Source of the DNA: Spirochaetaceae bacterium
GTDB taxonomy: Bacteria; Spirochaetota; Spirochaetia; DSM-27196; SKKC01
Length of the DNA: 48,033 nt
Assembly: GCA_007694005.1 (NCBI GenBank)
Contig: RECN01000099.1
Coordinates: 1 to 48,033, forward strand
Reading direction: 5' to 3'
The notes beneath the pieces are model-generated. The model worked only from the letters and a program-made list of their open reading frames with translations. It did no database searches and was not told the origin of the DNA. This document shows, one piece after another, positions 7,626-34,423 of this stretch (its first letter is position 1; each line of letters begins with the position of its first letter). The position numbers and the translations under genes were made by a program.

Positions 7626-10141
7626 AAGCCCATGATCTTCCGGTCTACCGCGAACGCAGCCGCATCCTCGAATGCCTGTCGTCGTCGCAGGTAATGGTAG
7701 TCGAGAGTCCGACGGGAAGCGGTAAAACCACACAGATTCCGCTCATCCTCCACGAAGCAGGGTATGCTGAGCACGGAAAAATCGGGGTCACACAGCCGAG
7801 ACGTATCGCTGCAGTGTCGGTCTGCGACTACATAGCCCGTCAGACGGGTTCAACACCTCCCGATCTCGTCGGCTTCAAAATGCGTTTCGACGACCAGACA
7901 GACCGCACGACCCGTATCAAGATCATGACTGACGGCATCCTGCTGCAGGAAATGAAGGCGAATCCCGGGCTTGACGAGTACAGCGTCATCGTCGTCGACG
8001 AGGCACACGAGCGGAGCCTGAATATCGATTTTATACTTGGACTGCTGAAGACGGTACTCCGCAAGCGTCCGGAGTTTCGCCTCATCATCAGCAGTGCGAC
8101 CATCAACTCATCGGTCTTCAGTCAGTATTTTGACGACTGCCCGGTCCTGCACATCGACAGTCCGATGTATCCGGTCGAGGTGCGCTATACGCCACCGCCA
8201 TCGGAGAACAGCGAAGAGTCCCTGCTCTATCGCATATCCACCGTCATGGGTGAAATTGTTGAGTCCGGGCACACCGGTGATGCACTGATTTTTCTCAGCG
8301 GTGAGATGGCAATTAAGAACTGTGTAGCAGAGCTTTCTCGTCAGTCGTATGCCGAAACGCTTCATATACTCCCCCTGTATGGCCGTCTCTCTCGGGAAGA
8401 ACAGGAACGCGTGTTCGATCCACCGTCGCCCGGTAAACGCAAAGTCGTGGTATCCACGAACATTGCAGAGACCAGTGTGACGATAGAAGGCATTACCGCC
8501 GTCATCGATTCGGGTCTTGCAAAGCTGAACTTCTACAACCCGAAAACCTCTACGTCAAGCCTCATAGAAGGGCCGATTTCCCGTGCAAGTGCCAACCAGC
8601 GTAAAGGCCGTGCGGGTCGGACCCAGCCGGGTGTCTGTTACCGGCTCTACTCCGAAAAATCGTTTAATGCGCGCGACCTGTTTACCACAGAAGAGATCTA
8701 CCGGACCGATCTTTCCGAAGTGGTTCTTCGCATGGCTGAGCTGGATATCAGGGATTTCGCCAGTTTTGACTTCCTCTCAGCACCGTCGTCGCGAGCACTT
8801 GTCGCAGCAGTCGAAACCCTCGAGCTCCTCGAAGCCCTTGATAATGACAACGGACTCACGGAAATCGGATCGCAGATGGCAAGGTTCCCCCTGTCACCCC
8901 GGCACAGCCGCATGATCGTAGAGGCGATACACCGCTATCCCGACGTCATAGAAGAAACGGTGATTGCAGCTGCCTTTCTCACGAGTCAGTCACCGTTTAT
9001 CCTGCCCGAAGGCGAAGAGATACAGGCTCGGCAGGCCCACCACACCTTCCGACACGAATACGGTGATTTTGCAAGTTACCTGCGCCTGCTTGGTGCTTAC
9101 GATGCGGCGAAGCGAAAGGACCGGTTCTGCAGCACACATTACCTTGATCCGCGTGCCGTTGCTGAAATCCGCAACGTTGCCACACAGCTCGGTGATATCG
9201 TATCCGACATGGGAGTACCGTTGGGAAACGGTGGACGCATTTCGGATTATCTCTGCGCAGTGGCCACAGGCCTTATACAGTTCGTCTGTGTACGAGACGG
9301 TAAGTTCACCTACGCCAGTCTCACGGCAGAGCGCATACAGATTCACCCTGGAAGCGTCATGTTCCGCGAAACACCCGATTACATTGTCGCCGGTGAAATC
9401 GTCCGCACATCGAAAACCTTCGCCCGCTCGGTTTCACCACTCGAACGAAGCTGGCTTTCACGGATTTCGCGCGATCTCGCGATCGGCCTTAAAGAAATAG
9501 GCAGGAGCTCGGACACGGGCAGAAAGGGCAAGTCGGGTAAGAAAGAAAGCAAAAAGCGTGACACAACGTGGCAGGTAAGTATCGCGGGCCGAACCTTTCC
9601 GATCCGACAACAGAAGGGCAAGAAGAAGACCGTCGTCGTGTCCTGGGAAGCCCTCGACGAGCTGTCGAACAGCCGCAGACTGGAGGTCCCCGCAGCGCAG
9701 GGCAATATCCGCTGTGTCCTGACCTACCGCGGAGTTGATCTCATAGCCGGCGAAAAGCTTGAGACCGTACTTCGACTCGCACGTCATATCCGTTTGCCGG
9801 ATGATCTTGGATCAAACCGCCCGCTACAGCGGAGTTACACTGCGCAGACCGACCTGGCAGCGCTGCTTGAAACGATACCTGAGTGTCTTACTTTTGCACC
9901 GCTTCGGAAATCAAAAAAACAGCTCGGCGTCAATGCCCTGTTCACCGACGGTAACGGGACATACTGGTTCAGAACCGTGGGCCGGTACACTCAGGCGGTT
10001 GAAGAGACGCTTGGAAGTCTTGAATATCTGACCGACGAGATCCGGAACACGGGTTCAGATGCAGTTGAGGACGATGGTCTGAACTACGCGGCGCTCGGGG
10101 CCATGTACCGGCGTACAACCCGAATCTACGAGGATCTCTGA
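7622..10141 (+). CDS. hrpA: DEAH-box RNA helicase, HrpA-like
   Basis: 839 residues. Walker A SPTGSGKTT (29-37), QPRR (59-61), DEAH (126-129), SSAT in motif III, STNIAETSVTIEG in motif V and QRKGRAGR in motif VI form a complete DEAH/RHA helicase core. HA2/winged-helix and OB domains follow (about 400-600). A lysine-rich stretch at about 635-655 separates a C-terminal region of unknown fold. It probably remodels mRNA or ribosomes using ATP. E. coli HrpA is 1300 residues; this is the short form, but the core matches HrpA/DHX more than HrpB. The ATG overlaps the hisS stop. It converges on aroB with only eight bases between the stops. Confidence 0.88.
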   Translation: MKAHDLPVYRERSRILECLSSSQVMVVESPTGSGKTTQIPLILHEAGYAEHGKIGVTQPRRIAAVSVCDYIARQTGSTPPDLVGFKMRFDDQTDRTTRIKIMTDGILLQEMKANPGLDEYSVIVVDEAHERSLNIDFILGLLKTVLRKRPEFRLIISSATINSSVFSQYFDDCPVLHIDSPMYPVEVRYTPPPSENSEESLLYRISTVMGEIVESGHTGDALIFLSGEMAIKNCVAELSRQSYAETLHILPLYGRLSREEQERVFDPPSPGKRKVVVSTNIAETSVTIEGITAVIDSGLAKLNFYNPKTSTSSLIEGPISRASANQRKGRAGRTQPGVCYRLYSEKSFNARDLFTTEEIYRTDLSEVVLRMAELDIRDFASFDFLSAPSSRALVAAVETLELLEALDNDNGLTEIGSQMARFPLSPRHSRMIVEAIHRYPDVIEETVIAAAFLTSQSPFILPEGEEIQARQAHHTFRHEYGDFASYLRLLGAYDAAKRKDRFCSTHYLDPRAVAEIRNVATQLGDIVSDMGVPLGNGGRISDYLCAVATGLIQFVCVRDGKFTYASLTAERIQIHPGSVMFRETPDYIVAGEIVRTSKTFARSVSPLERSWLSRISRDLAIGLKEIGRSSDTGRKGKSGKKESKKRDTTWQVSIAGRTFPIRQQKGKKKTVVVSWEALDELSNSRRLEVPAAQGNIRCVLTYRGVDLIAGEKLETVLRLARHIRLPDDLGSNRPLQRSYTAQTDLAALLETIPECLTFAPLRKSKKQLGVNALFTDGNGTYWFRTVGRYTQAVEETLGSLEYLTDEIRNTGSDAVEDDGLNYAALGAMYRRTTRIYEDL

Positions 10142-17406: not shown

Positions 17407-17447
17407 GGACGGCCCCCTTTGACCTTCGTAGCAATATAGACTGATGG

Positions 17448-17476
17448 ATTCTAGGAATGAGGTATACCCCTGTCAA
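17448..17476 (-). promoter_or_regulatory. Strong sigma-70 promoter for ileS
   Basis: On the minus strand TTGACA (17476-17471), 17 bases, then TAGAAT (17453-17448), five of six matches at -10. The expected start near 17441 leaves a leader of about 35 bases before the TTG start codon. No T-box specifier or antiterminator structure fits in so short a leader. Confidence 0.7.
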
Positions 17477-17524
17477 CCTCGCGGATTTGACAGAAACGCA
17501 TCCTCATGGCACAAGATACGTACT

Positions 17525-18814
17525 ATGAGACCACTTCGTGAACTGCACGCCCGGATAGAGTCGGGCGAAGCACAAAAAGACTTCTTCGAGAAGAGCTCGC
17601 CCCAGGAGCCTGCGGGCGAAACCCGGCGCATGGTATCTCTCCTGTCATCGTTCAGGAACAGACTTGACGATGAACGCTCGGCGGTTTTCGTGTCTGCACC
17701 CGGACGCACCGAACTCGCCGGCAATCACACCGACCACAACAGAGGGAGCGTTCTCGCGGGTGCATGCAACCTTGATACGCTCGGTGTCATCAGTCCGCGG
17801 AACGACGGCATCATTCGCATTCTCAGTGCCGGCTACGATTCGATCATCGAAGTCGACACGCAGGAACTCGACATACAGTCCACCGAACGTGGAAACCCGG
17901 AAGCGCTCGTGCGCGGGGTTGCGGCGTTCTTTGCCGACCAGGATCTGAAGGTCGGAGGGTTCGACGCGTCACTCGAGAGCCGTGTCCTTCCCGGCAGCGG
18001 CCTTTCGAGTTCCGCAGCATTTGAGGTGTTTATCGGGACAGCTCTGAACACGCTCTACAACCGGAACAAGGCAGGGGTCCTCGACATTGCGAAGGCCGGT
18101 CAGTTCGCCGAGAACGAGTACTTCGGGAAACCCTGCGGCCTTATGGACCAGATCGCGTGCGCCCACGGCGGAATCGTTGCCATAGATTTCTCCTGCGATC
18201 CGCCTGAGATCGATAGTGTGCAGACCGATTTCAGGGAAGCCGGATACACGCTGTGCGTCATCGATACTGGTGGCGACCACGCCGACCTGACGGATGACTA
18301 CGCTTCGGTTCCTGAAGAGATGCGCTCGGTTGCCGAGGGGCTCGGGCACACGCTGCTCGGAGAGTCCAGCCTCGAGGCGTTCAGGACCGCTCTGCCGACC
18401 CTGCGCGAACGCTGTTCAGACCGTGCCCTGCTGCGTGCCCTGCATTTCTTTCGGGATAACGAGCGTGTTTCGCAGATGGTAACGGCACTGCGAGCGAAGC
18501 AGACCGAAGCATATCTGAAACTTGTGAACGAAAGCGGCCTTTCAAGCGCGACGAACCTGCAGAACTACTTCAGCACGCGGAATCCCGACACTCAGGGCAT
18601 AAGCCTGGCCTGTGCGCTCGGGTCCGACTACTTCGCCACCAACAGACTCAGTGGCGCACTTCGGGTTCACGGTGGTGGCTTTGCAGGCACCATACAGGCC
18701 TACGTGCCGACAGACCACGCCAAAGGTTTTACCGAATGCATGGAAGCAGTCTTCGGAGCAGGATCGGTCATAGAGCTTCGCATTCGGGAAGCTGGACCTA
18801 TGGTCTTCAGCTGA
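17525..18814 (+). CDS. galK: Galactokinase
   Basis: 429 residues, a GHMP kinase that phosphorylates galactose at C1 with [18 protein letters not shown] is the galactokinase signature, [14 protein letters not shown] the GHMP ATP loop, and [12 protein letters not shown] the third motif. The GNHTDHN spelling and the N-terminal extension of about 60 residues fit the longer bacterial galactokinases. Start ATG 17525 is favoured by family length; ATG 17444 would add 27 residues, and neither has a clear ribosome site. galT and galE are not in the window. PPi-PFK and SMP-30 genes follow on the same strand. Confidence 0.87.
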
Positions 18815-18875
18815 TATCCGCACGGCGGCACGGGAACTTGCCAAAGACCGAGGTGCGTACTACCCTGTCGGTGTT

Positions 18876-20531
18876 ATGCATGTATCAGATTTACAGAGTA
18901 TTCGATATACCTACAGTCCCAAACTTCCCCCTGCCATAGCGGGTAAGATCGCCTCCATCGACGTGCAGAAGGGCGGCCCGACGGAGTCGGTCGCCGATCA
19001 GGACGCGCTTAAGGAAGTCTTCGCGCACAGTTACGGCCAGCCCATCGTAGAACTGATTGCAGGAACGACCGAGCACGAAGCTCCGAAGCGTGTCGTCGGT
19101 GCGATTCTGTCCGGAGGACAGGCCCCGGGAGGACATAATGTGATTGCCGGGCTTTTCGACGCCCTGAAGGCGGCGAATCCGGCGTCAACCCTTCTTGGAT
19201 TTCGAGGCGGGCCCAGTGGTCTGCTCGAGAACAGGGCCATAGAGATCACCTCCGAACTCATCGACACGTACAGAAATACCGGTGGCTTCGACATCATCGG
19301 ATCCGGTCGCACGAAGATCGAGAGTGCGGATGACTTCGCTCAGGCAGCAAAAGTCTGCCGTGAGCTCGAGCTCGACGGACTGATTGTTATTGGCGGCGAC
19401 GACTCCAATACGAACGCCGCCCTGCTCGCCGAGTATTTCCTGTCCGAAGGTGTGGCGACTAAGGTCATAGGTGTCCCGAAGACAATAGACGGGGATCTGC
19501 GAAACGAGTACATCGAGGCGAGTTTCGGCTTTGATACGGCGACAAAAACCTACAGCGAACTCATCGGGAATATCGGCAGGGACGCCGCGAGTGCCCGTAA
19601 GTACTGGCACTTCATACGCCTCATGGGCCGCAGCGCGAGCCACATAGCGCTTGAATGCGCCCTGCAGACTCACCCGAACGTCTGTATCGTGTCCGAAGAG
19701 GTCGAAGCGAAGGCATGGACTCTGCACGACGTCGTCGATCAGATCTGTGACTCGGTGCGCGCTCGCGCGGCAAACGGCATGAACTTCGGTATCATTCTTG
19801 TTCCGGAAGGTCTCATCGAGTTCATCCCGGAGATCAAGAAACTCATTACGTCACTGAACGATCTTCTCGCTCACGAGGCGGATGCGTTCGGCAGACTTGA
19901 ATCAGATGGCGATCGTATTACATTTGTTTCACAACATCTGTCGGACGACCTGAAAGCCACCTTCAACTCCCTGCCAGCAGGCATACAGTCACAGCTGCTC
20001 GACGATCGGGACCCGCACGGGAATGTGCAGGTGTCCCGCATCGAAACCGAGAAAATGCTGATCGAGATGGTTGAGGCTCAACTGAAACAGGATGCCCGGA
20101 CCGGCGTGTACAAGGGAAAGTTCAGCGGACTCGCCCACTTCTTCGGATACGAAGGTCGTTGCGCCTTTCCTTCGAACTTCGACGCCGACTACTGCTACAG
20201 CCTCGGGTATACCGCATTCCTGCTGCTCGCGTCCGACCTCACCGGATACATCGCATCTATACGCAACATATCCCGACCGGCCGGCGAATGGAAGGCGGGA
20301 GGGATACCGCTGACTATGCTCATGAACATGGAGCAACGGCACGGCTCCCAAAAACCGGTGATACGCAAAGCCCTTGTGGAACTCGACGGGGCGCCGTTTC
20401 GTGAATTTGCATCAAAGCGTGACAGCTGGAAGGTGGAGACCTCGTTCTCATCACCCGGCGCAATTCAGTACTTCGGTCCACCGGAGGTCTGTGATCAACC
20501 GACCCTGACGCTCAAACTTGAGCGATCCTGA
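18876..20531 (+). CDS. pfp: Pyrophosphate-dependent 6-phosphofructokinase, long type
   Basis: 551 residues. It interconverts fructose 6-phosphate and fructose 1,6-bisphosphate with pyrophosphate instead of ATP, making glycolysis at this step reversible. [12 protein letters not shown] binds the phosphoryl donor, and GGDDSNTNA carries the second Asp that marks PPi-type enzymes (ATP-type have GGDGS). PKTIDGDL is the catalytic base region, and [14 protein letters not shown] binds fructose 6-phosphate. The length matches the plant-beta/Borrelia/Treponema long class. It starts 61 bases after galK and is followed by an SMP-30 gene after eight bases. Confidence 0.93.
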
Positions 20532-25093: not shown

Positions 25094-26344
25094 ATGCGCA
25101 TGGCAGAAATCAATCCTATCGTTGTATCAGACAGCGCGTACGATGAACTCGAACAGTATTTGAGAAAAGAGGCCTTCACGAACTGCACCGTCGTTTCGGA
25201 CGAGCAGACTCATGCAGCAGCCGGCGCCGAAGTCGCCGCGCGCGCACGCGCCGCCGGTCTCCGGGTCCGCGAAATTGTCCTCAGCCCGGGCGAGGTTGTC
25301 GCAGACGAAGTCCGCCTGATCGAAATACTCAGACAGACAAGCCCGGAAGACGAACTGTTCATCGCGGCAGGCTCCGGAACGATAACCGACATGACCCGTT
25401 TTGTAAGCTTCAAACTCGGCGTTCCCTTCGTGAGCTGTCCGACCGCCGCTTCGGTCGACGGCTTTACTTCAATCGGGGCTCCTCTGGTTCTCAAGGGAAT
25501 CAAGCAGACGGTGATCTCGCAGCCACCGCTTGCGATGTTTGCCGACACGAACGTCCTGTGCGGGGCGCCACCGGAAATGACGGCTGCCGGATACGGTGAC
25601 ATCATTGGAAAAATCACCTCGCTTGCGGACTGGAAGATCGGAAGACTGCTGTGGAACGAACCCTACGACGAATCAATCGCCGAACGTACGCAAAAGGCAA
25701 TTGATGCCTGCGTGAAACACCGCCACGAGATCGGAACCGGTACGGCCGCAGGCGTGGAGATTCTGATGCACGCGCTTGTTGAGTCGGGGCTCTGTCTCGT
25801 CGACTTCGGCGAAAGCAGACCCGCGTCAGGAGCCGAACATCACCTTTCTCATTTCTGGGAAATGCAGCTTCTGCGTGACGGGCGACCGGCGATTCTCCAC
25901 GGAGCGAAGGTCGGTGTGGCGACGGTCATAATCGCACAACTCTACGAGCGCATTGCATCCATTTCTCGCGAAGGCCTCGCTGAGCGCCTCGCCGGCGTTC
26001 ATTTTCCAAGCCTGTCGTCGGAGAAAGACGCAATACACTCGGCCTACGGAAGCTATGCCGAGCAGCTCATACAGAGCAGCGATTTTCTCGATTTCGATCA
26101 GGAGAAGGTTCGCGAAATCCGCGAACGCATAGTAAAGCACTGGGGCGAAATACAGGATATTGCGGCTGCCGTTCCAAAAGCACGAGAAGTGGCAGGACTG
26201 CTGCGCGACGCCGATGCCCCGACAACAGCGTCCGACCTCGGCCTCTCGGCCGAACTCGAAAACGCGGCATACCGATATGCCCATTACCTGCGAAACAGAT
26301 TTACCTCGGTGAAGCTTGCCCGTTTTCTCGGGATACACAGCTGA
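25094..26344 (+). CDS. egsA: sn-Glycerol-1-phosphate dehydrogenase (AraM/EgsA family)
   Basis: 416 residues, an iron-dependent-alcohol-dehydrogenase-like fold that reduces dihydroxyacetone phosphate to sn-glycerol 1-phosphate. AAGSGTITDMTRFVSFKLG is the NAD(P) loop, PFVSCPTAASVDGFTS the substrate site, GYGDIIGKITSLADWK gives the first metal Asp region and GAEHHLSHFWE the metal histidines. Archaea use the product for lipids; B. subtilis AraM uses it for heptaprenyl glycerol. Start ATG 25094 or 25100. Its 3' end overlaps the convergent glycosidase gene by 44 bases. No geranylgeranylglyceryl-phosphate synthase is seen nearby. Confidence 0.88.
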   Translation: MRMAEINPIVVSDSAYDELEQYLRKEAFTNCTVVSDEQTHAAAGAEVAARARAAGLRVREIVLSPGEVVADEVRLIEILRQTSPEDELFIAAGSGTITDMTRFVSFKLGVPFVSCPTAASVDGFTSIGAPLVLKGIKQTVISQPPLAMFADTNVLCGAPPEMTAAGYGDIIGKITSLADWKIGRLLWNEPYDESIAERTQKAIDACVKHRHEIGTGTAAGVEILMHALVESGLCLVDFGESRPASGAEHHLSHFWEMQLLRDGRPAILHGAKVGVATVIIAQLYERIASISREGLAERLAGVHFPSLSSEKDAIHSAYGSYAEQLIQSSDFLDFDQEKVREIRERIVKHWGEIQDIAAAVPKAREVAGLLRDADAPTTASDLGLSAELENAAYRYAHYLRNRFTSVKLARFLGIHS

Positions 26345-29051
26345 CCGACAGCTCGTACGCACCGGGAGCCAGATCGACGCCGACGGCGTTTCCAAAAACA
26401 GCGAATCCGATCTGGCTTCCGTTCAGAATGACATTACTCTCTGTTGCCGCTCCGCGGTCCGGGCAGATCAATATCGTCGAGACACCGGATTCGGAGGATT
26501 CATCCACCTGCAGTGACAGCGAAAGGACACCCTGAGACGCGGAGCGACGGAGTATCCAGGTATCAAGACCGACGGTGACGGTACCAGGCTGGTAGTATGC
26601 AGCATACCAGTTCAGAACGGGCGATGAGAGGCCACCAAACTGATGCCATCCGGCCCCTCTCCCGGTCGAAAGTGGAAAATGCTCATAACAGCGTCGGCTC
26701 TCCTGAACTTCACGGGCCCACAACTCCAGGGCGGTCCGGGCGATTTTCCATGCTTCCGATCCAAGCCCGAGATCCAGACAGGTCTTCCACATGAACCACT
26801 GATGAGGCATCCAGACTGCACCGTTCCAGTATCCGTCACTCCGCGCATACGAGGCGGACACATCGACGGTACTGATGCCGATCCCGGTCCACATGTGATC
26901 AGGGCTGAAAAGGCGTGCAATCAGGGCGTCGCGCTCGTAAGACAAAAGCGCTCCTGTCACCAGAGGTGAAAGACCGTCGAGGCCGAGGTTCGCATTCTCT
27001 CCGCCAGGAGCGCGAAGGACACCGATGACCTGGCCTGTTTCATCGTGCTCCACATAGCCGAATATCTTCGCGTCTTCGTCCCAGGCGTGCGCGCGCAGAG
27101 CATGCATGATCTCTTCAAGGTCAGCTGAGACCGTTTCGGGCAGCTGCTCGTCGTCCAGCAGGCGCGCGAATCCCGAGAGCAGACGAGCGAACCGGACCAG
27201 GTGGGCATTGGTTACAACCGGTGCAACTCTATCGGCGATTCCCCGTGCGTGAACCATGTTTTGCGCAGGGTAGTCGTCCCAACCGCCTGAGTTATAGAAA
27301 TATGCAAAGGTAGTCCTCAGCTTGCTGCGAAACGGATTGGTAGCAGAACTTCCCCCACGCCCTGCGAGAAACTCGTAGTACCGCAGGAGCCGCCGGTAGT
27401 CACGAGTCCGGTTTTCGTGGCCGGGAAACTGGTCCATCAGTTCCTTCGCGAGGTAGGCCTGAACTGGAACAGGCGACCCGTGATGAAGGAAGGCCCGGTG
27501 CAGGTCCTTGTCGGCACCGAGGTAGGTGTCGAGTGACTCACGGGCGCGCTCGGGCGAGAAGACGCTCAGTCCGATACCTGAGAACCCGGCATCCCAGGTA
27601 TACACGCTGTCCCACCATCGCCCGGGTGTCGTGTGGCACGTGTATTGTCCGCGGATCTGCACCGGGTACACCACGTTGCTCAGCGCGACCGCAGCGAGTC
27701 GGTCCGCGCCGTGTCGTATGCCCGGCTCGGGAGGATCACCGTCGAAGGTAAAGTACGGTGGTGCAGTTCCACCGCGTGGAAAGTCCGCTGTTTCCAGGCA
27801 CGACGCCGCATCCGGCCCCTCTATGCGAAAAACGAAAGAGAGCTCACCACCCGCCTCGACGGCCAGAGGCCGCAGAAACAGATCCAGGTAGTACGGCTCG
27901 TACAAGCCGGGTACCGGGGCGTAGCGCTTGTCCCTGATGTGCAGCTGTACGTGATTGTGTGTGAGGTGAGCCATGACCTCGTCGAGGTTTCGTGTCTCCA
28001 CGGTCCTGAGCACGGTGTCGTAGCGATGATCCCGGAAAAGCCTGAAACGTTCGCCGCCTGCATAGGTGAGTTCAAGGGCGTCGCGCGACCGTATACCCTG
28101 CGATACCGCAGGTCTATCGGCTGGAAGGCCGACCGAACACGGATCGGGGAGTATACCTTCGCGCACGTCCTCGAAGCAGAAGAAGCCGTCGAGGCATAGA
28201 CCTGCTGCTCCTGATACCGTTTCTAGCTCAAGGCGACAGGAGGATTCCGGAGGGCCGGAGAGAGGAAGCACCGAGACCTGAAACCCGTCAGACGGAGGCA
28301 GAGCCACTTCTACGGTATGCGCATCGGCGCCGCCCGGTGACTCATCAGACGGAAACAGCTTCAGTCTGATCCGGATACTGGTGTCGGACGCGTTGCTGTA
28401 CCGTATACCGAGACTGCGAAATCCGGGTTCTGCGCAGTGCAGTGTTGCGATCATCGTATCACCGGTATCGGCACCCCATCCGGACGCGACAGCGACTCCC
28501 CGGACCGATCCCTGTACCGGTTCAATACCTCGGCGGTACCCGTCGTACACAAGCGAATCACGTATGCCCGGCCGGGCGAAGAACAGATCCACGTAGTCAG
28601 CAGCAGCGGACCAGCGGTCAGCGAGCCCGGCAGGGACTGCGACGCTCAGACGGACCTCATCGCTTCCCGGTTTCAGTCGTGGTGGTGCGAGACGGAAAAG
28701 GATATGACAGCAGGTCGATACCGGAAGGCTGCTCGCGTTCCGGAACCGGACCGTGGCCGTGACGATATCCGTCGTCTCCGTGCGCCAGTCTACCTCAGCA
28801 GACAGGGTTTCCGTCATCTCGTGGAGCATGCGCACCGCCCCGAGGTCGACAGCGGCAGCATCGACAAGACAGCCGGCGTCCCAGACGGCGCTCGGCACGA
28901 ACACCCGCCCGCGATAGATCCCCGGAACAACGATGCAATCGAGGCGTTCGCCGGTCTCGTCGCTCAGTCGACGACTGAATCCCATATGCTCTTTCGAGTA
29001 GGGTCCCCAAGCCGGATAGTACCGGGTATCAAGCCGCTCCCTGAGTGACAT
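26301..29051 (-). CDS. GH63-like (alpha/alpha)6-barrel glycosidase
   Basis: About 916 residues. The C-terminal half has glycosidase blocks of the GH63/GH37 clan: VYTWDAGFSGIGL, SGGWDDYPAQ (probable general acid Asp), YWNGAVWMPHQWFMW, and a late segment with EHFPLSTG and GAGWHQFGGLSSPV. The N-terminal half is beta-rich, probably a carbohydrate-binding/super-sandwich domain. No signal peptide, so it should act in the cytoplasm on an imported saccharide. Start ATG 29051 has GAGGAG upstream, inside the end of the preceding oxidoreductase gene; GTG 29072 is an alternative. It is the last gene of the leftward sugar operon. Family is likely; the bond cleaved is unknown. Confidence 0.75.
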   Translation of the reverse strand: MSLRERLDTRYYPAWGPYSKEHMGFSRRLSDETGERLDCIVVPGIYRGRVFVPSAVWDAGCLVDAAAVDLGAVRMLHEMTETLSAEVDWRTETTDIVTATVRFRNASSLPVSTCCHILFRLAPPRLKPGSDEVRLSVAVPAGLADRWSAAADYVDLFFARPGIRDSLVYDGYRRGIEPVQGSVRGVAVASGWGADTGDTMIATLHCAEPGFRSLGIRYSNASDTSIRIRLKLFPSDESPGGADAHTVEVALPPSDGFQVSVLPLSGPPESSCRLELETVSGAAGLCLDGFFCFEDVREGILPDPCSVGLPADRPAVSQGIRSRDALELTYAGGERFRLFRDHRYDTVLRTVETRNLDEVMAHLTHNHVQLHIRDKRYAPVPGLYEPYYLDLFLRPLAVEAGGELSFVFRIEGPDAASCLETADFPRGGTAPPYFTFDGDPPEPGIRHGADRLAAVALSNVVYPVQIRGQYTCHTTPGRWWDSVYTWDAGFSGIGLSVFSPERARESLDTYLGADKDLHRAFLHHGSPVPVQAYLAKELMDQFPGHENRTRDYRRLLRYYEFLAGRGGSSATNPFRSKLRTTFAYFYNSGGWDDYPAQNMVHARGIADRVAPVVTNAHLVRFARLLSGFARLLDDEQLPETVSADLEEIMHALRAHAWDEDAKIFGYVEHDETGQVIGVLRAPGGENANLGLDGLSPLVTGALLSYERDALIARLFSPDHMWTGIGISTVDVSASYARSDGYWNGAVWMPHQWFMWKTCLDLGLGSEAWKIARTALELWAREVQESRRCYEHFPLSTGRGAGWHQFGGLSSPVLNWYAAYYQPGTVTVGLDTWILRRSASQGVLSLSLQVDESSESGVSTILICPDRGAATESNVILNGSQIGFAVFGNAVGVDLAPGAYELSVSCVSRENGQASPR

Positions 29052-29064
29052 GCGCGGACGCTCC

Positions 29065-30141
29065 TCAGTCACCGACCCGAATCGCCATCTCCTGCGCCTG
29101 CAGACAGAGCTCAGCCGCCAGGAAGGTATGATCCTGAGGCATGGCCGTATCGGTACCGTTCAGACAGTCAAGAATGAGCTCTCCAAAATACGGATACCCG
29201 ACGGTTCCGTGTACGGGAATGTGATGCTCGCCGGATCCGTCCACAAGATACACGTGATCTGGAGCTTCATCCCGGGCAACATCGATGTACTTCCGCAGTT
29301 CAATGTAGCCTTCTGTTCCGAGAATGATGGTTCGACCGTCGCCCCAGGTGCGCAGACCGTCCGGGGTAAACCAGTCGACTCTGAAATAGTTCGTTGCACC
29401 GGTATCACCGACGAGGGTGGCGTCACCGAAGTCCTCGAGCTCGGGGTACTCGGGATGTGCGTAGTTGGCGACTTTACTGTGAAGCACCTTCGCGCTCTTC
29501 GATCCGGAAAACGAGAGAAACTGCTCGATCTGATGGCTTCCGATGTCAGTCAGGATTCCACCATAGTACTTCTTCTGAAAGAACCACGCAGGTCGGTTCG
29601 GCGCACTTAGTCGGTGCGGCCCGGTGCCGAGAACCTGCAGAACGCGCCCGATCGCTCCTGACGCGATCAGCCGTCCGGCGTGCACCGCTGCTTCGTTCTG
29701 CACCCGCTCGCTGTAACAGACCGCCCAGTGCAGACCGGTTTCCTTCACCTTTGCCCGCGCCGAGGCCAGCTGTTCGGTCGTCGTGAACGGCGCCTTGTCG
29801 GAAAAGTAGTGCTTTCCGGCGTCGAGGACCTGAAGGCCCAAAGGGCCGCGCTTCGAAGGGATGGCGGCGCTTGCGACCATCTGCACACTCTGGTCCTCAA
29901 GAATCTGCTCGAGACTGTCTGATACCTTCGCCTCGGGAAACTTCCCCAAAAAGGATTTGACCTGTGCAGGGTCATCCGCGTACACCGCTGATAGTGTTCC
30001 TCCTGCGTCGATCAGGCTTTGTGTCATCCCGAAGATGTGACCGTGATCGAGCCCGACCGCCGCAAAACGGAACTCGCCCGGTTTCACAACGGGATCAGGT
30101 CTGCCCTCGGGAGCGTAATTCATACCATCTGCATGTGCCAT
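29065..30141 (-). CDS. Gfo/Idh/MocA-family oxidoreductase A
   Basis: 358 residues, an NAD(P)-dependent sugar dehydrogenase/reductase type. The N-terminal Rossmann part is FRFAAVGLDHGHIFG, the usual EKP catalytic lysine block is present as DKAPFTT, and the alpha/beta C-terminal domain includes GILTDIGSHQIEQF. Start ATG 30141 has GGAGG five bases upstream; longer readings run into the neighbour gene. It lies 10 bases after the isomerase gene and 13 before the glycosidase. With oxidoreductase B it could form an oxidise/reduce pair, which is an inference. Confidence 0.85.
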   Translation of the reverse strand: MAHADGMNYAPEGRPDPVVKPGEFRFAAVGLDHGHIFGMTQSLIDAGGTLSAVYADDPAQVKSFLGKFPEAKVSDSLEQILEDQSVQMVASAAIPSKRGPLGLQVLDAGKHYFSDKAPFTTTEQLASARAKVKETGLHWAVCYSERVQNEAAVHAGRLIASGAIGRVLQVLGTGPHRLSAPNRPAWFFQKKYYGGILTDIGSHQIEQFLSFSGSKSAKVLHSKVANYAHPEYPELEDFGDATLVGDTGATNYFRVDWFTPDGLRTWGDGRTIILGTEGYIELRKYIDVARDEAPDHVYLVDGSGEHHIPVHGTVGYPYFGELILDCLNGTDTAMPQDHTFLAAELCLQAQEMAIRVGD

Positions 30142-30151
30142 ACCAGCCTCC

Positions 30152-30925
30152 TTACAGCAGTCCCATGCTGCGCATGTTCTGTATTGAAAGATCAATCGAC
30201 GCGAATATGTCCCGAACTTCTCGTGGTTTGTCCTGCTCGACTATGAACATGGTAATTTCGTGGTCGCTGCAGGCCTTGAGAATTGCCGGCCAGTTCATGT
30301 TTCCTTCGCCGACTTCGGCAAATACCGGTTCGCCGCCGTCAACAGCGAAATCCTTGATATGTATCGCACCGATCCGTCCACCGTGGGTCTGTATAAAGGC
30401 TTCGGGACTTGCTCCTCCGCGCATGACCCAGTGAACGTCCAGTTCCAGATTGACCGGTGCCGACTCGGTCTCCTTGAGAAAGACCTCCATGAAGGTACTC
30501 CGCTCGAAACGCTCGAACTCGCGGTGGTGGTTATGAAATCCGAGCCTGCACCCGGCTTCCGCAAAACGCTTCGCGGGCTCAAGAAACATGCCGGCGAGCT
30601 CACGCGCGCCGCCCGGTCGGAAAAAATCGGGCCCGGGACTACCAAGCGCGCAGTAATCGCTTCCGAGTATCTTGAGCTTCTCGATTGCGTAATCGGTGCG
30701 ATTTACAATTGTGTCGAGATTTTCGTGAGTCGCACAGACGGCAAGCCCATGCATGTCAGTGATCTGTCTGATCCGCTCCGGAGCAATGTCGCCGACCCCG
30801 GACACCTGCACCGACGGATATCCCATACCTGCGATGCGTTCAAGCGTTCGGGCGAGATCATTCTCGTTCTGGCAATGCTCCCTGACTGAGAACAGGTTAA
30901 TGCCGATTGTATTACTGTTTTTCAT
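30152..30925 (-). CDS. TIM-barrel sugar phosphate isomerase/epimerase
   Basis: 257 residues of the xylose-isomerase-like/AP-endonuclease-2 superfamily. Metal and substrate residues appear in GFHNHHREFERF, NLELDVHWVMRGG, IGAIHIKDF and MFIVEQDKP, in the order seen in IolE/IolI-type proteins. Members isomerise or epimerise sugars, and some catalyse beta-elimination of keto-glycosides. Start ATG 30925 has GAGGA upstream. It sits between two Gfo/Idh genes with 10-base gaps, so all three are co-translated. Confidence 0.85.
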   Translation of the reverse strand: MKNSNTIGINLFSVREHCQNENDLARTLERIAGMGYPSVQVSGVGDIAPERIRQITDMHGLAVCATHENLDTIVNRTDYAIEKLKILGSDYCALGSPGPDFFRPGGARELAGMFLEPAKRFAEAGCRLGFHNHHREFERFERSTFMEVFLKETESAPVNLELDVHWVMRGGASPEAFIQTHGGRIGAIHIKDFAVDGGEPVFAEVGEGNMNWPAILKACSDHEITMFIVEQDKPREVRDIFASIDLSIQNMRSMGLL

Positions 30926-30935
30926 AGATATCCTC

Positions 30936-32126
30936 TTAGTATGTACCTGAAAGGTTTTCGGGTCCCTTTTCTGCTTCGAAAGCTGCTGGATCGTATGACG
31001 ATCCTGCTTTCAGTTCCGCGAGCCGCGTCGCATAGGCAGCTTCGTCCATGGGCATCTCGACTGTTCGGGACTCAAACGACGAGAGCATGATCGCGTTCCC
31101 GAGCAGCACGGAGTTGAGTCCTTCGGGCGCCTCTGCGACTACGCTGCCCTGACCCTGTACCGCTTTCACGAACTGTTCCGTCAGAATGCGGTGTCCTCCC
31201 TCTCCGTGATGGCTGAACGGTATGGTTGCCGGCCAGTACTCCGCCTTCGCGAAGGAAACCGGTGACTCCGCAATCGTTTTGAGCATCGACTCACGATTCC
31301 GGCCAAAGCTAAGCGTATCGTTTTCGAACACCAGCCGACCCTGTTCACCGACAATCTCAAGACGATTGGTACCTGGTGACTCCCCGGTGGATGTGATGAA
31401 GTGGCCGACCATGCCGTTCTGATGCTCGAAATACGCGGTTACCTCATCTTCGACTTCAATCTGATGATACTTTCCCAGCGAGGCGAATCCCCGGACCTTT
31501 GAAGGAAGGCCGAAAAACCACTGATACAGATCGAGGTTATGCGGACACTGGTTCAGGAGTACTCCTCCCCCCTCACCTGCCCAGGTAGCACGCCAGCCCC
31601 CGGTGTCATAATAGTGCTGGGTGCGAAACCAGTCGGTAATAATCCACGTCGCTCTGACGAGGCGCCCAAGCTCGCCTGATTCAAGCAGATCCTTGATCTT
31701 CTTCCAGTGCCCGAAGGTGCGCTGGTTGAACATGGCGCCAAACTGTATCCCCGGATAGCGTTTCTGCGCTTCCTTATAGGCTGCGATCGCCCGGCGTGCA
31801 TCCGTGCCTTCGACGGCAAGCGGTTTTTCCACCAGAACGTGTATTCCCTGGGAAAGCGCCTCGATGGAAATAGGCACGTGATCATAATGCGGCGTCGCCA
31901 CGAGAACGGCGTCCGGCTTTGCACTCCGGAACATATCCGACACATTCGTGTATGCGGTGCATGAGCCGGCCTCGGCTCCCGCGTCCGCGCGTTCCTGTAT
32001 CCGGTCACAGACCGCAACGAGCTCTACTCCATCCATCTGGGAAAGATGGCCTATATGCGTGCTGCCCATGTTTCCGAGGCCGACAACCGAAAAACGGACC
32101 GGGGTGTTTTGTGCTGTATCTGACAT
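30936..32126 (-). CDS. Gfo/Idh/MocA-family oxidoreductase B
   Basis: 396 residues. FSVVGLGNMGSTHIGHL is the Rossmann nucleotide loop, HVLVEKPLAVEG carries the canonical EKP lysine, and GGVLLNQCPHNLDLYQWF holds the catalytic-site His/Asp block. It resembles sugar or inositol dehydrogenases that oxidise a ring hydroxyl with NAD(P)+. Start ATG 32126 has AGGAG eight bases upstream; a TTG just before is less likely. First gene of the leftward sugar operon, divergent from the AraC regulator. Confidence 0.87.
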   Translation of the reverse strand: MSDTAQNTPVRFSVVGLGNMGSTHIGHLSQMDGVELVAVCDRIQERADAGAEAGSCTAYTNVSDMFRSAKPDAVLVATPHYDHVPISIEALSQGIHVLVEKPLAVEGTDARRAIAAYKEAQKRYPGIQFGAMFNQRTFGHWKKIKDLLESGELGRLVRATWIITDWFRTQHYYDTGGWRATWAGEGGGVLLNQCPHNLDLYQWFFGLPSKVRGFASLGKYHQIEVEDEVTAYFEHQNGMVGHFITSTGESPGTNRLEIVGEQGRLVFENDTLSFGRNRESMLKTIAESPVSFAKAEYWPATIPFSHHGEGGHRILTEQFVKAVQGQGSVVAEAPEGLNSVLLGNAIMLSSFESRTVEMPMDEAAYATRLAELKAGSSYDPAAFEAEKGPENLSGTY

Positions 32127-32172
32127 CAACCTGACTCCTTTATTATCACGAACGCCAGTCTAGACCCGGATT

Positions 32173-32183
32173 CCGGTGACCGG
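32173..32183. promoter_or_regulatory. Short dyad in the divergent sugar-operon region
   Basis: CCGGT-G-ACCGG is a perfect 11-bp dyad ending three bases before the -35 of the araC-like gene, within the 102-base region between the divergent starts at 32126 and 32229. Its place suits an operator for the AraC-type regulator, but the arms are short. Confidence 0.3.
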
Positions 32184-32185
32184 TA

Positions 32186-32215
32186 TTGACGGACCCGTTG
32201 TGCAGCATGGATAAA
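32186..32215 (+). promoter_or_regulatory. Promoter of the araC-like gene
   Basis: TTGACG (32186-32191), an 18-base spacer and GATAAA (32210-32215) precede the ATG at 32229 by 13 bases, so the leader would be only about six to eight bases and carries no clear ribosome-binding site. Confidence 0.45.
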
Positions 32216-32228
32216 ACCGGCAAGAATC

Positions 32229-33056
32229 ATGCATATGCGTTCAGACAGTATGCTTCTCAGGGACCTGCTACCGGACCAGATGCACGTCACGTTTACCGAG
32301 CGACCCATCCCGCAGAAGCAGGGAACCGACTGGTCCATAGACCCCCGGGTAATCAACGACTACGATCTCTTTGTCTGTCTCTCCGGGAGCGCCGTGTTCC
32401 GGGTGCAGGATGCCGAGTATCTGCTTTCGCGGGGTGAAGCGCTGCTTGTACCGCCGTACACGATTTTTTCCGCTCGACACGGGGGACAGGGACGCTTCGA
32501 AGCAGTCGCGCAGCATTTCACCGTCGATGTGCTCGGACGTTACGATCTTTTCAGTCTCATACGATACGAACGCCATGTCCGGTTTGATCGGGCGTGGCCC
32601 TACGTAGCCGAGACGGTACGGCTCTACATCGATTCCTGGCAGCAGGACGGAACAAGCCTCTTCGGTCACGCACACTTCCTGACCCTGCTCACGCAATTTC
32701 TCCGGAAGGCCTACCGTGGAGAAAGCGCAGACACGGCTGTGCACGACATGTTTATTATCGAAATGGCACATCTGCTGCAGACACGATTTGCGTCGCCCGA
32801 TGTCATGGAGGAGGCCATTTCGCGTTCACCATACAGCCGCGACTACACGACGCGACTATTCCGCGAGCACACGGGCGTCACTCCGAAACAATACCTCATA
32901 CAGGCCCGCATCCGTGCCGCGAGAGAGATGCTTCAGCAGGGATCATCGGTCAAGGACGCAGCGTTTGCTACGGGCCACAAGGACGAGTTATATTTCTCGC
33001 GGCTATTCAGACAGAAGACCGGCACTCCGCCGAGCGCCTACCGATCAGGAGTATAG
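32229..33056 (+). CDS. AraC-family transcriptional regulator
   Basis: 275 residues. The N-terminal 140 residues look like a cupin-type sensor (YDLFVCLSGSAVFRVQD, RGEALLVPPYTIFSARHG). The C-terminal 100 form two AraC helix-turn-helix units; the second is VKDAAFATGHKDELYFSRLF ending in KKTG-like QKTGTPPSAYR. It probably senses a sugar and activates the divergent oxidoreductase/glycosidase operon and the transporter gene that follows. Its TAG stop (33054-33056) is three bases before the likely start of the transporter. Confidence 0.88.
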   Translation: MHMRSDSMLLRDLLPDQMHVTFTERPIPQKQGTDWSIDPRVINDYDLFVCLSGSAVFRVQDAEYLLSRGEALLVPPYTIFSARHGGQGRFEAVAQHFTVDVLGRYDLFSLIRYERHVRFDRAWPYVAETVRLYIDSWQQDGTSLFGHAHFLTLLTQFLRKAYRGESADTAVHDMFIIEMAHLLQTRFASPDVMEEAISRSPYSRDYTTRLFREHTGVTPKQYLIQARIRAAREMLQQGSSVKDAAFATGHKDELYFSRLFRQKTGTPPSAYRSGV

Positions 33057-33058
33057 GT

Positions 33059-34423
33059 ATCATAACCCACAAGATCAGCCGATGGACGCCGCCGCGGCGC
33101 GTCATATTCGTTGCCGCGGTCATGGCCTTCGTCATGAGCCTGCCCGGCCAGACAAACGGGGTAAGCCCCTTCACGGACCCGCTCATCGAAGCCTTACGCA
33201 TAAGCCGGAACGCACTGAGTCTTGCGTATCTCGTCGGAACAATCTCAAGCGCTGCTCTTCTCACCTTCGCCGGGCGGGCCTACGACAGGCTCGGCTCGCA
33301 GACAACAGGAGCAATAGCCGCGACCGGCCTGGGCCTCAGTCTCTTCGGTCTGAGCAGCCTGCCCGCTATTTCTCGCGGACTGACCACCGCCGGCGTAGAT
33401 CCGGCGATCGCAACGATAACGTCGCTCACCGCCGGATTCTTCCTGATCCGCTTCTTCGGTCAGGGTCTGATAACGCTGGTCGGAAAAACAATGCTCTTCA
33501 AGTGGTACGATGATAAACGCGGTCAGGCGAATGCGGTCCTCTCCATCGCGGTCCCGCTGGTTTTCTCCGGTGCGCCGCTCGTGTTCGATGGTCTGATCCG
33601 GGGAGCCGGGTGGCAGGGCGCATGGATGATTCTTGGACTGATCCTGTTTCCCGGATTTGCTGTAGTAAGTTTCCTGGTATTCCGGGACCCGCCGAAGCAG
33701 GGAACCACCCCTACCGCTTTACCCGGTGTCGGAAGGCGGCCCGGTTTTATACCCGCATGGCTTGTGCGACTGATCGCCCGCACCGGGATCCGACCGACGC
33801 GCGAGCCGAGGCGACCTCCGGTCGACGCAGATCTGTCTGAGGTAGTGCGAAGCCTGCCCTTCTGGGCTTTCAATGGAGTCGTTACCCTGAGCTCAATGCT
33901 GATTACAGGATTCACGTTTCACGTCGTCGGAATATTCGCGGAAGCCGGCATCGGACGGGCTACCGCACTCGCGGTGTTTCTGCCGAGCTCATTCGTCTCG
34001 ATAGCGGTGCAGAGCCTCGGCAGTCTGCTGAGTGATTACGTTCGTCTGAAATATTTCGCGATCCTGCACGCCGTATCTCTTATCGCGTTGCTGGCACTGT
34101 TGCCCTTTCTGGGGAGCGGACCACTCCCATACATGCTTGTTGTCGTAGCACACGGGGTGAGTCTCGCACTCTTCGGAATAAACAGCTCGGTTGTGTGGCC
34201 CCGTTTCTACGGATTGACCCACCTCGGCAGCATCAATGGTTTTGCCGGTGCTTCCATGGCTGCCGGAAGCGCACTTGGGCCCTACGCGTTCAGCCTGAGC
34301 TACGACCTGCTCGGTCGTTTCTCAGCACTGGGTATCGTATTCATACCAGTATGCGCCGTGCTCGTCGTTACCGGTTTCGCGGCAAACAACCCGAACAGGC
34401 GCTTTATTACCGAGAGCTCCTAA
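33059..34423 (+). CDS. Major-facilitator transporter with probable non-canonical start
   Basis: About 454 residues, some 12 membrane segments of the MFS fold. The first, RRVIFVAAVMAFVMSLPGQTNG, resembles the start of oxalate/formate-antiporter-like MFS proteins. A basic Pro/Arg-rich loop at the middle (PALPGV...TREPRRPP region) separates the halves. No ATG, GTG or TTG lies in frame between the araC-like coding part and this first helix. AGGAG at 33047-33051 is seven bases before an ATC (33059) and ten before an ATA (33062), so I place the start at 33059. ATG 33122 would cut the first helix. It is coupled to the regulator gene. It probably imports the sugar used by the divergent operon. Confidence 0.75.
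   Translation: MITHKISRWTPPRRVIFVAAVMAFVMSLPGQTNGVSPFTDPLIEALRISRNALSLAYLVGTISSAALLTFAGRAYDRLGSQTTGAIAATGLGLSLFGLSSLPAISRGLTTAGVDPAIATITSLTAGFFLIRFFGQGLITLVGKTMLFKWYDDKRGQANAVLSIAVPLVFSGAPLVFDGLIRGAGWQGAWMILGLILFPGFAVVSFLVFRDPPKQGTTPTALPGVGRRPGFIPAWLVRLIARTGIRPTREPRRPPVDADLSEVVRSLPFWAFNGVVTLSSMLITGFTFHVVGIFAEAGIGRATALAVFLPSSFVSIAVQSLGSLLSDYVRLKYFAILHAVSLIALLALLPFLGSGPLPYMLVVVAHGVSLALFGINSSVVWPRFYGLTHLGSINGFAGASMAAGSALGPYAFSLSYDLLGRFSALGIVFIPVCAVLVVTGFAANNPNRRFITESS

Follow-up and report, generated by a model that had tools for sequence, protein, structure and literature searches.

A candidate operon for redox glycoside breakdown joined to a GH63-like hydrolase in a spirochaete draft genome

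Redox cleavage of glycosides is itself recently described chemistry, and several systems are known. For example, in the levoglucosan pathway LgdA-LgdB1-LgdB2-LgdC, LgdB2 is capable of two steps (PMC7676230), and operons with a single TIM-barrel protein are common, at 126 of 265 levoglucosan operons (PMC10066097). AtOGE of Agrobacterium tumefaciens binds Mn2+, with His132, Asp163, His189 and, weakly, Glu233 as metal ligands; its base is His134, and the substitutions H134A and H189A abolish activity (PMC10628242). The ycjQRS genes of E. coli, accompanied by phosphorylases, encode D-guloside 3-dehydrogenase, 3-dehydro-D-guloside 4-epimerase and D-glucoside 3-dehydrogenase. The 3-keto-beta-glucopyranoside-1,2-lyase/glucuronide-3-dehydrogenase pathway of Alistipes and Bacteroides is represented by the structures 8tcd, 8tcr, 8tct and 8tdi, which we took from their PDB titles only. 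In this study, a window of 48,033 nucleotides (the whole stretch of DNA analysed, contig C173 of a 3.9-Mb spirochaete draft genome) was examined. From the gene content, the homology to a 3-dehydrogenase and 3-keto lyases, the catalytic residues, the fold and the conserved gene order, we believe that it probably carries an AraC-regulated operon for the cytoplasmic redox breakdown of a glycoside, joined to a hydrolase.

The genes of GFO1, TIM, GFO2 and the GH63-like enzyme form a tight minus-strand operon with intergenic gaps of 10-13 bp, which is divergent from the plus-strand genes of an AraC regulator and an MFS transporter (Table 1). ORF positions and Pfam placed all the parts of the cluster where the initial annotation had them, and the family assignment of every part, including the two GFO_IDH_MocA proteins, was backed by Pfam; the AraC regulator is a part that the annotation had left unnamed. 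Seven genes, including a convergent glycerol-1-phosphate dehydrogenase-like gene, have the same order and orientation in a spirochaete relative (L008), with protein identities of 61-85%. Between L008 and the window, pN was 0.11-0.27 and pS was 0.69-0.76, with synonymous sites near saturation. The low pN relative to pS and the kept order indicate that these are functional genes under purifying selection and not chance ORFs. The closest relatives in the named collections were the spirochaetes L007 and L008, whose GH63-like proteins were 89% and about 60-61% identical, respectively, and their sample names (CSSed) would point to Cock Soda Lake sediment. The 3' ends of the GH63-like and the convergent dehydrogenase-like genes share 44 bp (26301-26344), an overlap that L008 also keeps (8822-8865). 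The initial annotation had reported no kinase, which holds within the cluster and not beyond it: a galactokinase-like GHMP kinase followed by a phosphofructokinase lies outside the cluster, 6-9 kb away in the window (17444-20531), and ROK-family matches occur elsewhere in the same genome.

Table 1. Positions of the cluster features in the window, with predicted roles and the basis of each row
Feature	Position	Strand	Basis or remark
GH63-like (MGH1-like) glycosidase, 916 aa	26301..29051	-	stop 26301, most likely start ATG 29051
GFO2, Gfo/Idh/MocA, predicted reductase	29065..30141	-	2p2s/3u3x matches
TIM, xylose-isomerase-like TIM barrel, predicted 3-keto-beta-glycoside 1,2-lyase	30152..30925	-	AtOGE match, predicted fold
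GFO1, Gfo/Idh/MocA, predicted NAD-dependent glycoside 3-dehydrogenase	30936..32129	-	TTG start or ATG 32126
Divergent intergenic region, 99 bp, presumed AraC operator and two promoters	32130..32228	.	position between divergent starts
AraC-family regulator	32229..33056	+	HTH_18 and AraC_binding (Pfam)
MFS transporter, monocarboxylate/oxalate-formate type	about 33060..34423	+	MFS_1; start codon uncertain

The MFS transporter scored 70 bits with MFS_1 and 52 bits with the model of the L-lactate transporter SfMCT, whose cut-off is 320 bits; it was 76% identical in L008, and we predict that it is likely an importer. At its start (33060-33120) the window reads ACG where L008 has ATG, and an in-frame upstream start would overlap araC. 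An AraC homologue divergent from GFO1 was also present in L159 (38.7%) and L008. The divergent intergenic region showed neither repeats, inverted or direct, nor a sigma-70-like site.

The GH63-like protein matched PF22422 (MGH1-like_GH) with 85.7 bits against a cut-off of 27, and PF03200 with 21.9 bits, just under the cut-off of 22.4. It is cytoplasmic and consists of N-terminal beta-sandwich domains and an (alpha/alpha)6 barrel. Its AlphaFold model (pLDDT 88.5) matched eukaryotic glucosidase I along most of the chain, and the barrel was nearest to Thermus mannosylglycerate hydrolase (Z 31.6, rmsd 2.5, 330 residues, 24% identity). Across 50 aligned homologues D592, D593 and E790 were invariant, and W15, G16, Y18 and the sugar-pocket motif Y484-T485-W486-D487 were kept. 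Matched by motif position and not by coordinates, the catalytic pair D182/E419 and the pocket residues Trp42-Asp43 of MhGgH are kept, and its glycerate contacts Tyr36 and Trp40 read Trp480 and Tyr484. These residues and the modelled fold suggest that the protein is likely an inverting alpha-glycosidase, a putative one to which no substrate can be assigned. A glycerate-type substrate, considered because of the MGH1-like name and the MCT-like transporter, found no support: the residues at the +1 site are different, and the score with the glucosylglycerate/mannosylglycerate hydrolase equivalog was very low (18.5 bits against a cut-off of 550); these clues may still give a weak hint that the substrate is anionic. 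Just 3 of 296 sampled genomes in the phylum carry the family, which is widespread outside it, with 149 relatives found. Proteins with the WGPYSK motif occur across Bacillota, Bacteroidota and Chloroflexota. The usual neighbours of the relatives of the GH63-like gene are, in Bacillota, ABC importers together with AraC/histidine-kinase regulators and, in Bacteroidota, SusCD-like genes. Reading the substrate from these neighbours was rejected, because the contexts were too varied to name a sugar. In L006 (G252:C47), the contig carries SusC-like genes typical of Bacteroidota in a genome placed in the spirochaete class, which is likely contamination of the draft.

GFO2 matched 2p2s (E 3e-110) and 3u3x (E 1e-86), two entries whose titles name no function. 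In this subfamily an invariant HGH (residues 27-35) takes the place of the Rossmann GxGxxG, and GFO2 and its homologues (31 aligned) share H32, G33 and H34 together with the invariant catalytic residues K115, D198 and H202. Judged from the alignment, cofactor binding in this HGH-motif subfamily may be unusual. The subfamily was common in Spirochaetota (27 of 393 genomes), where its members often adjoin a different Gfo/Idh gene and no TIM gene. This other pairing and the altered nucleotide motif count against the proposed pathway, of which GFO2 is the weak point. From pathway logic, GFO2 is the predicted reductase of a 3-keto sugar, and it is plausible that GFO1 and GFO2 work in opposite redox directions.

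The best PDB match of GFO1 was the glucuronide-3-dehydrogenase 8tdi (E 1e-62, residues 11-371), far ahead of the next structure, and GFO1 retains the EKP and NQxPH motifs. It stayed under the curated cut-offs of the levoglucosan dehydrogenase LgdA (57.5 against 650 bits) and of IolG (102.2 against 355 bits). GFO1 is predicted to be an NAD-dependent glycoside C3 dehydrogenase, perhaps for a glucuronide-like substrate. TIM scored 36.9 bits with AP_endonuc_2 (cut-off 31.1), and its best solved sequence relative was AtOGE (8bvk, E 1.8e-21), followed by 8tcd, 8tcs and 8tct. His131, Asp163, His189 and Glu230, together with His133, align with the metal ligands and the catalytic His of AtOGE, so that all five positions are conserved. 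The HNH motif is kept in the TIM homologues of other genomes and in Roseinatronobacter TIM1, and Cetobacterium TIM2 keeps both histidines as HMH. The AlphaFold model of TIM (pLDDT 89.4) was nearest to the 3-keto-beta-glucopyranoside-1,2-lyases AL1 (Z 27.0 and 26.8) and BT1 (Z 26.6), with structures 8tcr/8tcd/8tct and identities of 22-26% across the fold match; it gave Z 27.3 with an uncharacterised Parabacteroides relative and Z 24.6 with AtOGE. We therefore favour elimination over isomerisation, since the lyases and AtOGE are nearest by both sequence and fold and the metal site is kept. The initial annotation had let the TIM protein either eliminate or isomerise, and only the first arm is favoured here: TIM is predicted to be a metal-dependent 3-keto-beta-glycoside beta-eliminase and not a generic isomerase. 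Taken together, the homologies of GFO1 and TIM indicate C3 oxidation followed by beta-elimination. The oxidative glycoside route proposed earlier is thus well supported for these two proteins (8tdi, the 3-keto lyases and the metal site). The GH63-like enzyme has a tentative place in it, since relatives of that enzyme are mostly found with ABC or SusCD importers and the GFO1-TIM core also exists on its own.

Oxidation, epimerisation and reduction would account in one line for two Gfo/Idh proteins, one TIM and one glycosidase together. GFO1 would yield a 3-keto glycoside, TIM would epimerise its C4 or C2 and leave the glycosidic bond intact, GFO2 would reduce the product to a common glucoside and GH63 would hydrolyse it; the E. 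coli ycj cluster follows the same logic upstream of phosphorylases. However, TIM had no BLAST similarity to YcjR, which ranked only 36th in the Foldseek search with the TIM model, below the lyases and AtOGE at the top, and the epimerases reached Z 22 at most against 27 for the lyases. At the position of the first metal ligand, YcjR has Glu (EPL where TIM reads HNH) and both TIM and AtOGE have His, and Glu stands in this region of the second TIM type as well (Cetobacterium TIM1, Halanaerobium TIM). We consider such an epimerising route rather unlikely. Catabolism of inositol or inosose, with GFO1 as the inositol dehydrogenase and TIM as the inosose dehydratase, has in its favour the distant IolG match of GFO1, an IolE match of TIM (31.6 bits) and the IolE structures, which are the next-nearest folds to TIM after the lyases (about Z 23). 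Both scores are nevertheless far under the curated cut-offs (290 bits for IolE), the neighbours included no other recognisable iol gene, and the known lyases and AtOGE are nearer to TIM in sequence and fold, which makes inositol very unlikely.

The GH63-like gene might also be a passenger acting on another substrate, with the redox genes alone forming the pathway. GFO1 homologues directly adjoin TIM homologues, with no GH63 gene nearby, in five genomes (G002, G147, G163, G361 and G011); the divergent AraC gene recurs in G361, and G011 combines the complete GFO1-TIM-GFO2 order with a GH63 homologue on another contig. These five genomes suggest that GFO1-TIM is the core and GH63 an add-on. Most relatives of the GH63-like gene sit elsewhere, and a Gfo/Idh gene was found within 9 kb in just 12 of 80. 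Against a passenger, the order and the spacing of about 13 bp are kept in L008 at 61% identity, and in Halanaerobium kushneri a relative of the GH63-like gene occurs with a homologue of GFO1, a further Gfo/Idh and a TIM of another type. On balance we regard a passenger gene as unlikely, and we prefer an operon in which redox breakdown and the hydrolase belong together.

The Halanaerobium kushneri locus (L009, NZ_FTNC01000020, 5645-11637) has its own arrangement, in which the GH63 relative, the GFO1 homologue (41%), the other Gfo/Idh and a type-1 TIM are accompanied by an ABC importer, a two-component system and DUF2264. It is likely an independent case of another redox glycoside locus. Cetobacterium somerae p2 (L099, 4749-13279) carries AraC, TIM type 1, a GFO1-like protein, a second Gfo/Idh, TIM type 2, a GPH transporter and a beta-glucuronidase, apparently a complete oxidative glucuronide locus. 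With its beta-glucuronidase, this locus sets a precedent for an ordinary glycosidase that accompanies the pathway, and it agrees with a glucuronide-like substrate of the GFO1 dehydrogenase family. Some other neighbours were also observed. A glycerol kinase (GlpK) adjoins the GFO1-TIM-GFO2 core in L152 (G011:C89) and lies near GH63 in L079; with the convergent glycerol-1-phosphate dehydrogenase-like gene of the window this hinted at a link to glycerol, but each of these is a single case. GH38 alpha-mannosidases were seen close to the core in G011 and to GH63 in L010 and L043. The genome of the window has a second redox-sugar locus (L177, G000:C145:50000-52932), in which one long ORF combines a TIM barrel with a Gfo/Idh domain; it is accompanied by another TIM and, both judged by eye, an inositol-monophosphatase-like protein and a protein resembling a GH130 phosphorylase.

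The route that we propose is as follows. The MFS protein would import a small, possibly anionic, glycoside, and GFO1 with NAD+ would oxidise C3 of the sugar to give a 3-keto glycoside. TIM with a divalent metal (Mn2+ in AtOGE) would then use His133 to take the C2 proton, so that the aglycone would be eliminated and a 2-hydroxy-3-keto-glycal would be formed. Water would be added to the glycal by the same TIM, spontaneously or by another enzyme, and GFO2 with NADH would reduce the 3-keto sugar to the free sugar, at a net redox cost of zero. The GH63-like enzyme would cut alpha-glycosidic bonds by inversion, either trimming the import before oxidation or handling an alpha-linked part in parallel. 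A shared substrate is not evident, given that GH63 enzymes cut alpha bonds and the relatives of TIM work on beta-glycosides. In this scheme we infer the substrate, the direction of GFO2, the hydration step and the point at which GH63 acts.

As for hydration, the glycal must take up water in the known pathways, but the cluster has no second TIM to serve as a hydratase, which counts against the proposed route; many levoglucosan operons lack one too. In the genome, a search for the partner TIM type, run without a positive control, gave no homologue, and the 3-keto-disaccharide hydrolase PF06439 was not found either. The genome has ten TIM-barrel matches, the one in the window included, and these could include an unrecognised hydratase. 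The gap leaves room for the GH63-like enzyme to supply a pathway step by working on keto-sugar intermediates, for which we see only a small chance. If true, it would be novel work for a GH63-fold enzyme, and we know of no earlier case in which such an enzyme acts on keto-sugar intermediates.

The pairing of redox glycoside cleavage with a GH63-like hydrolase is unusual. The predicted operon would extend the redox route to soda-lake-type spirochaetes, and with four enzymes, one regulator and one transporter it offers a compact test case. It would also give a defined chemical context to the GH63-like proteins with the WGPYSK motif and to the Gfo/Idh proteins with the HGH motif, both of them uncharacterised families.

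Compared with the known systems, the 3-keto-lyase pathway includes the solved structures closest to GFO1 in sequence and to TIM in fold; the cluster here differs in having one TIM, an MCT-like MFS protein and a GH63-like enzyme. The AtOGE operon is alike in the metal site and catalytic His of its TIM protein and in having a Gfo reductase, but there GlycDH oxidises, a second TIM-type protein, AtHYD, is the provisional hydratase, and GH63 is absent (PMC10628242). The levoglucosan pathway shares a Gfo/Idh dehydrogenase, a TIM beta-eliminase and a Gfo/Idh reductase (PMC7676230), and has an ABC importer where the present cluster has an MFS protein and a GH63-like enzyme. E. coli ycjQRS has a similar set of parts, but the active site of YcjR is of the Glu type and that of TIM here is of the His type. 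The GH63 hydrolases Tt8MGH and MhGgH (PMC6608630) have the same barrel, catalytic Asp/Glu and Trp-Asp pocket motif as the GH63-like protein, which is twice as long and carries in addition an N-terminal beta-sandwich region.
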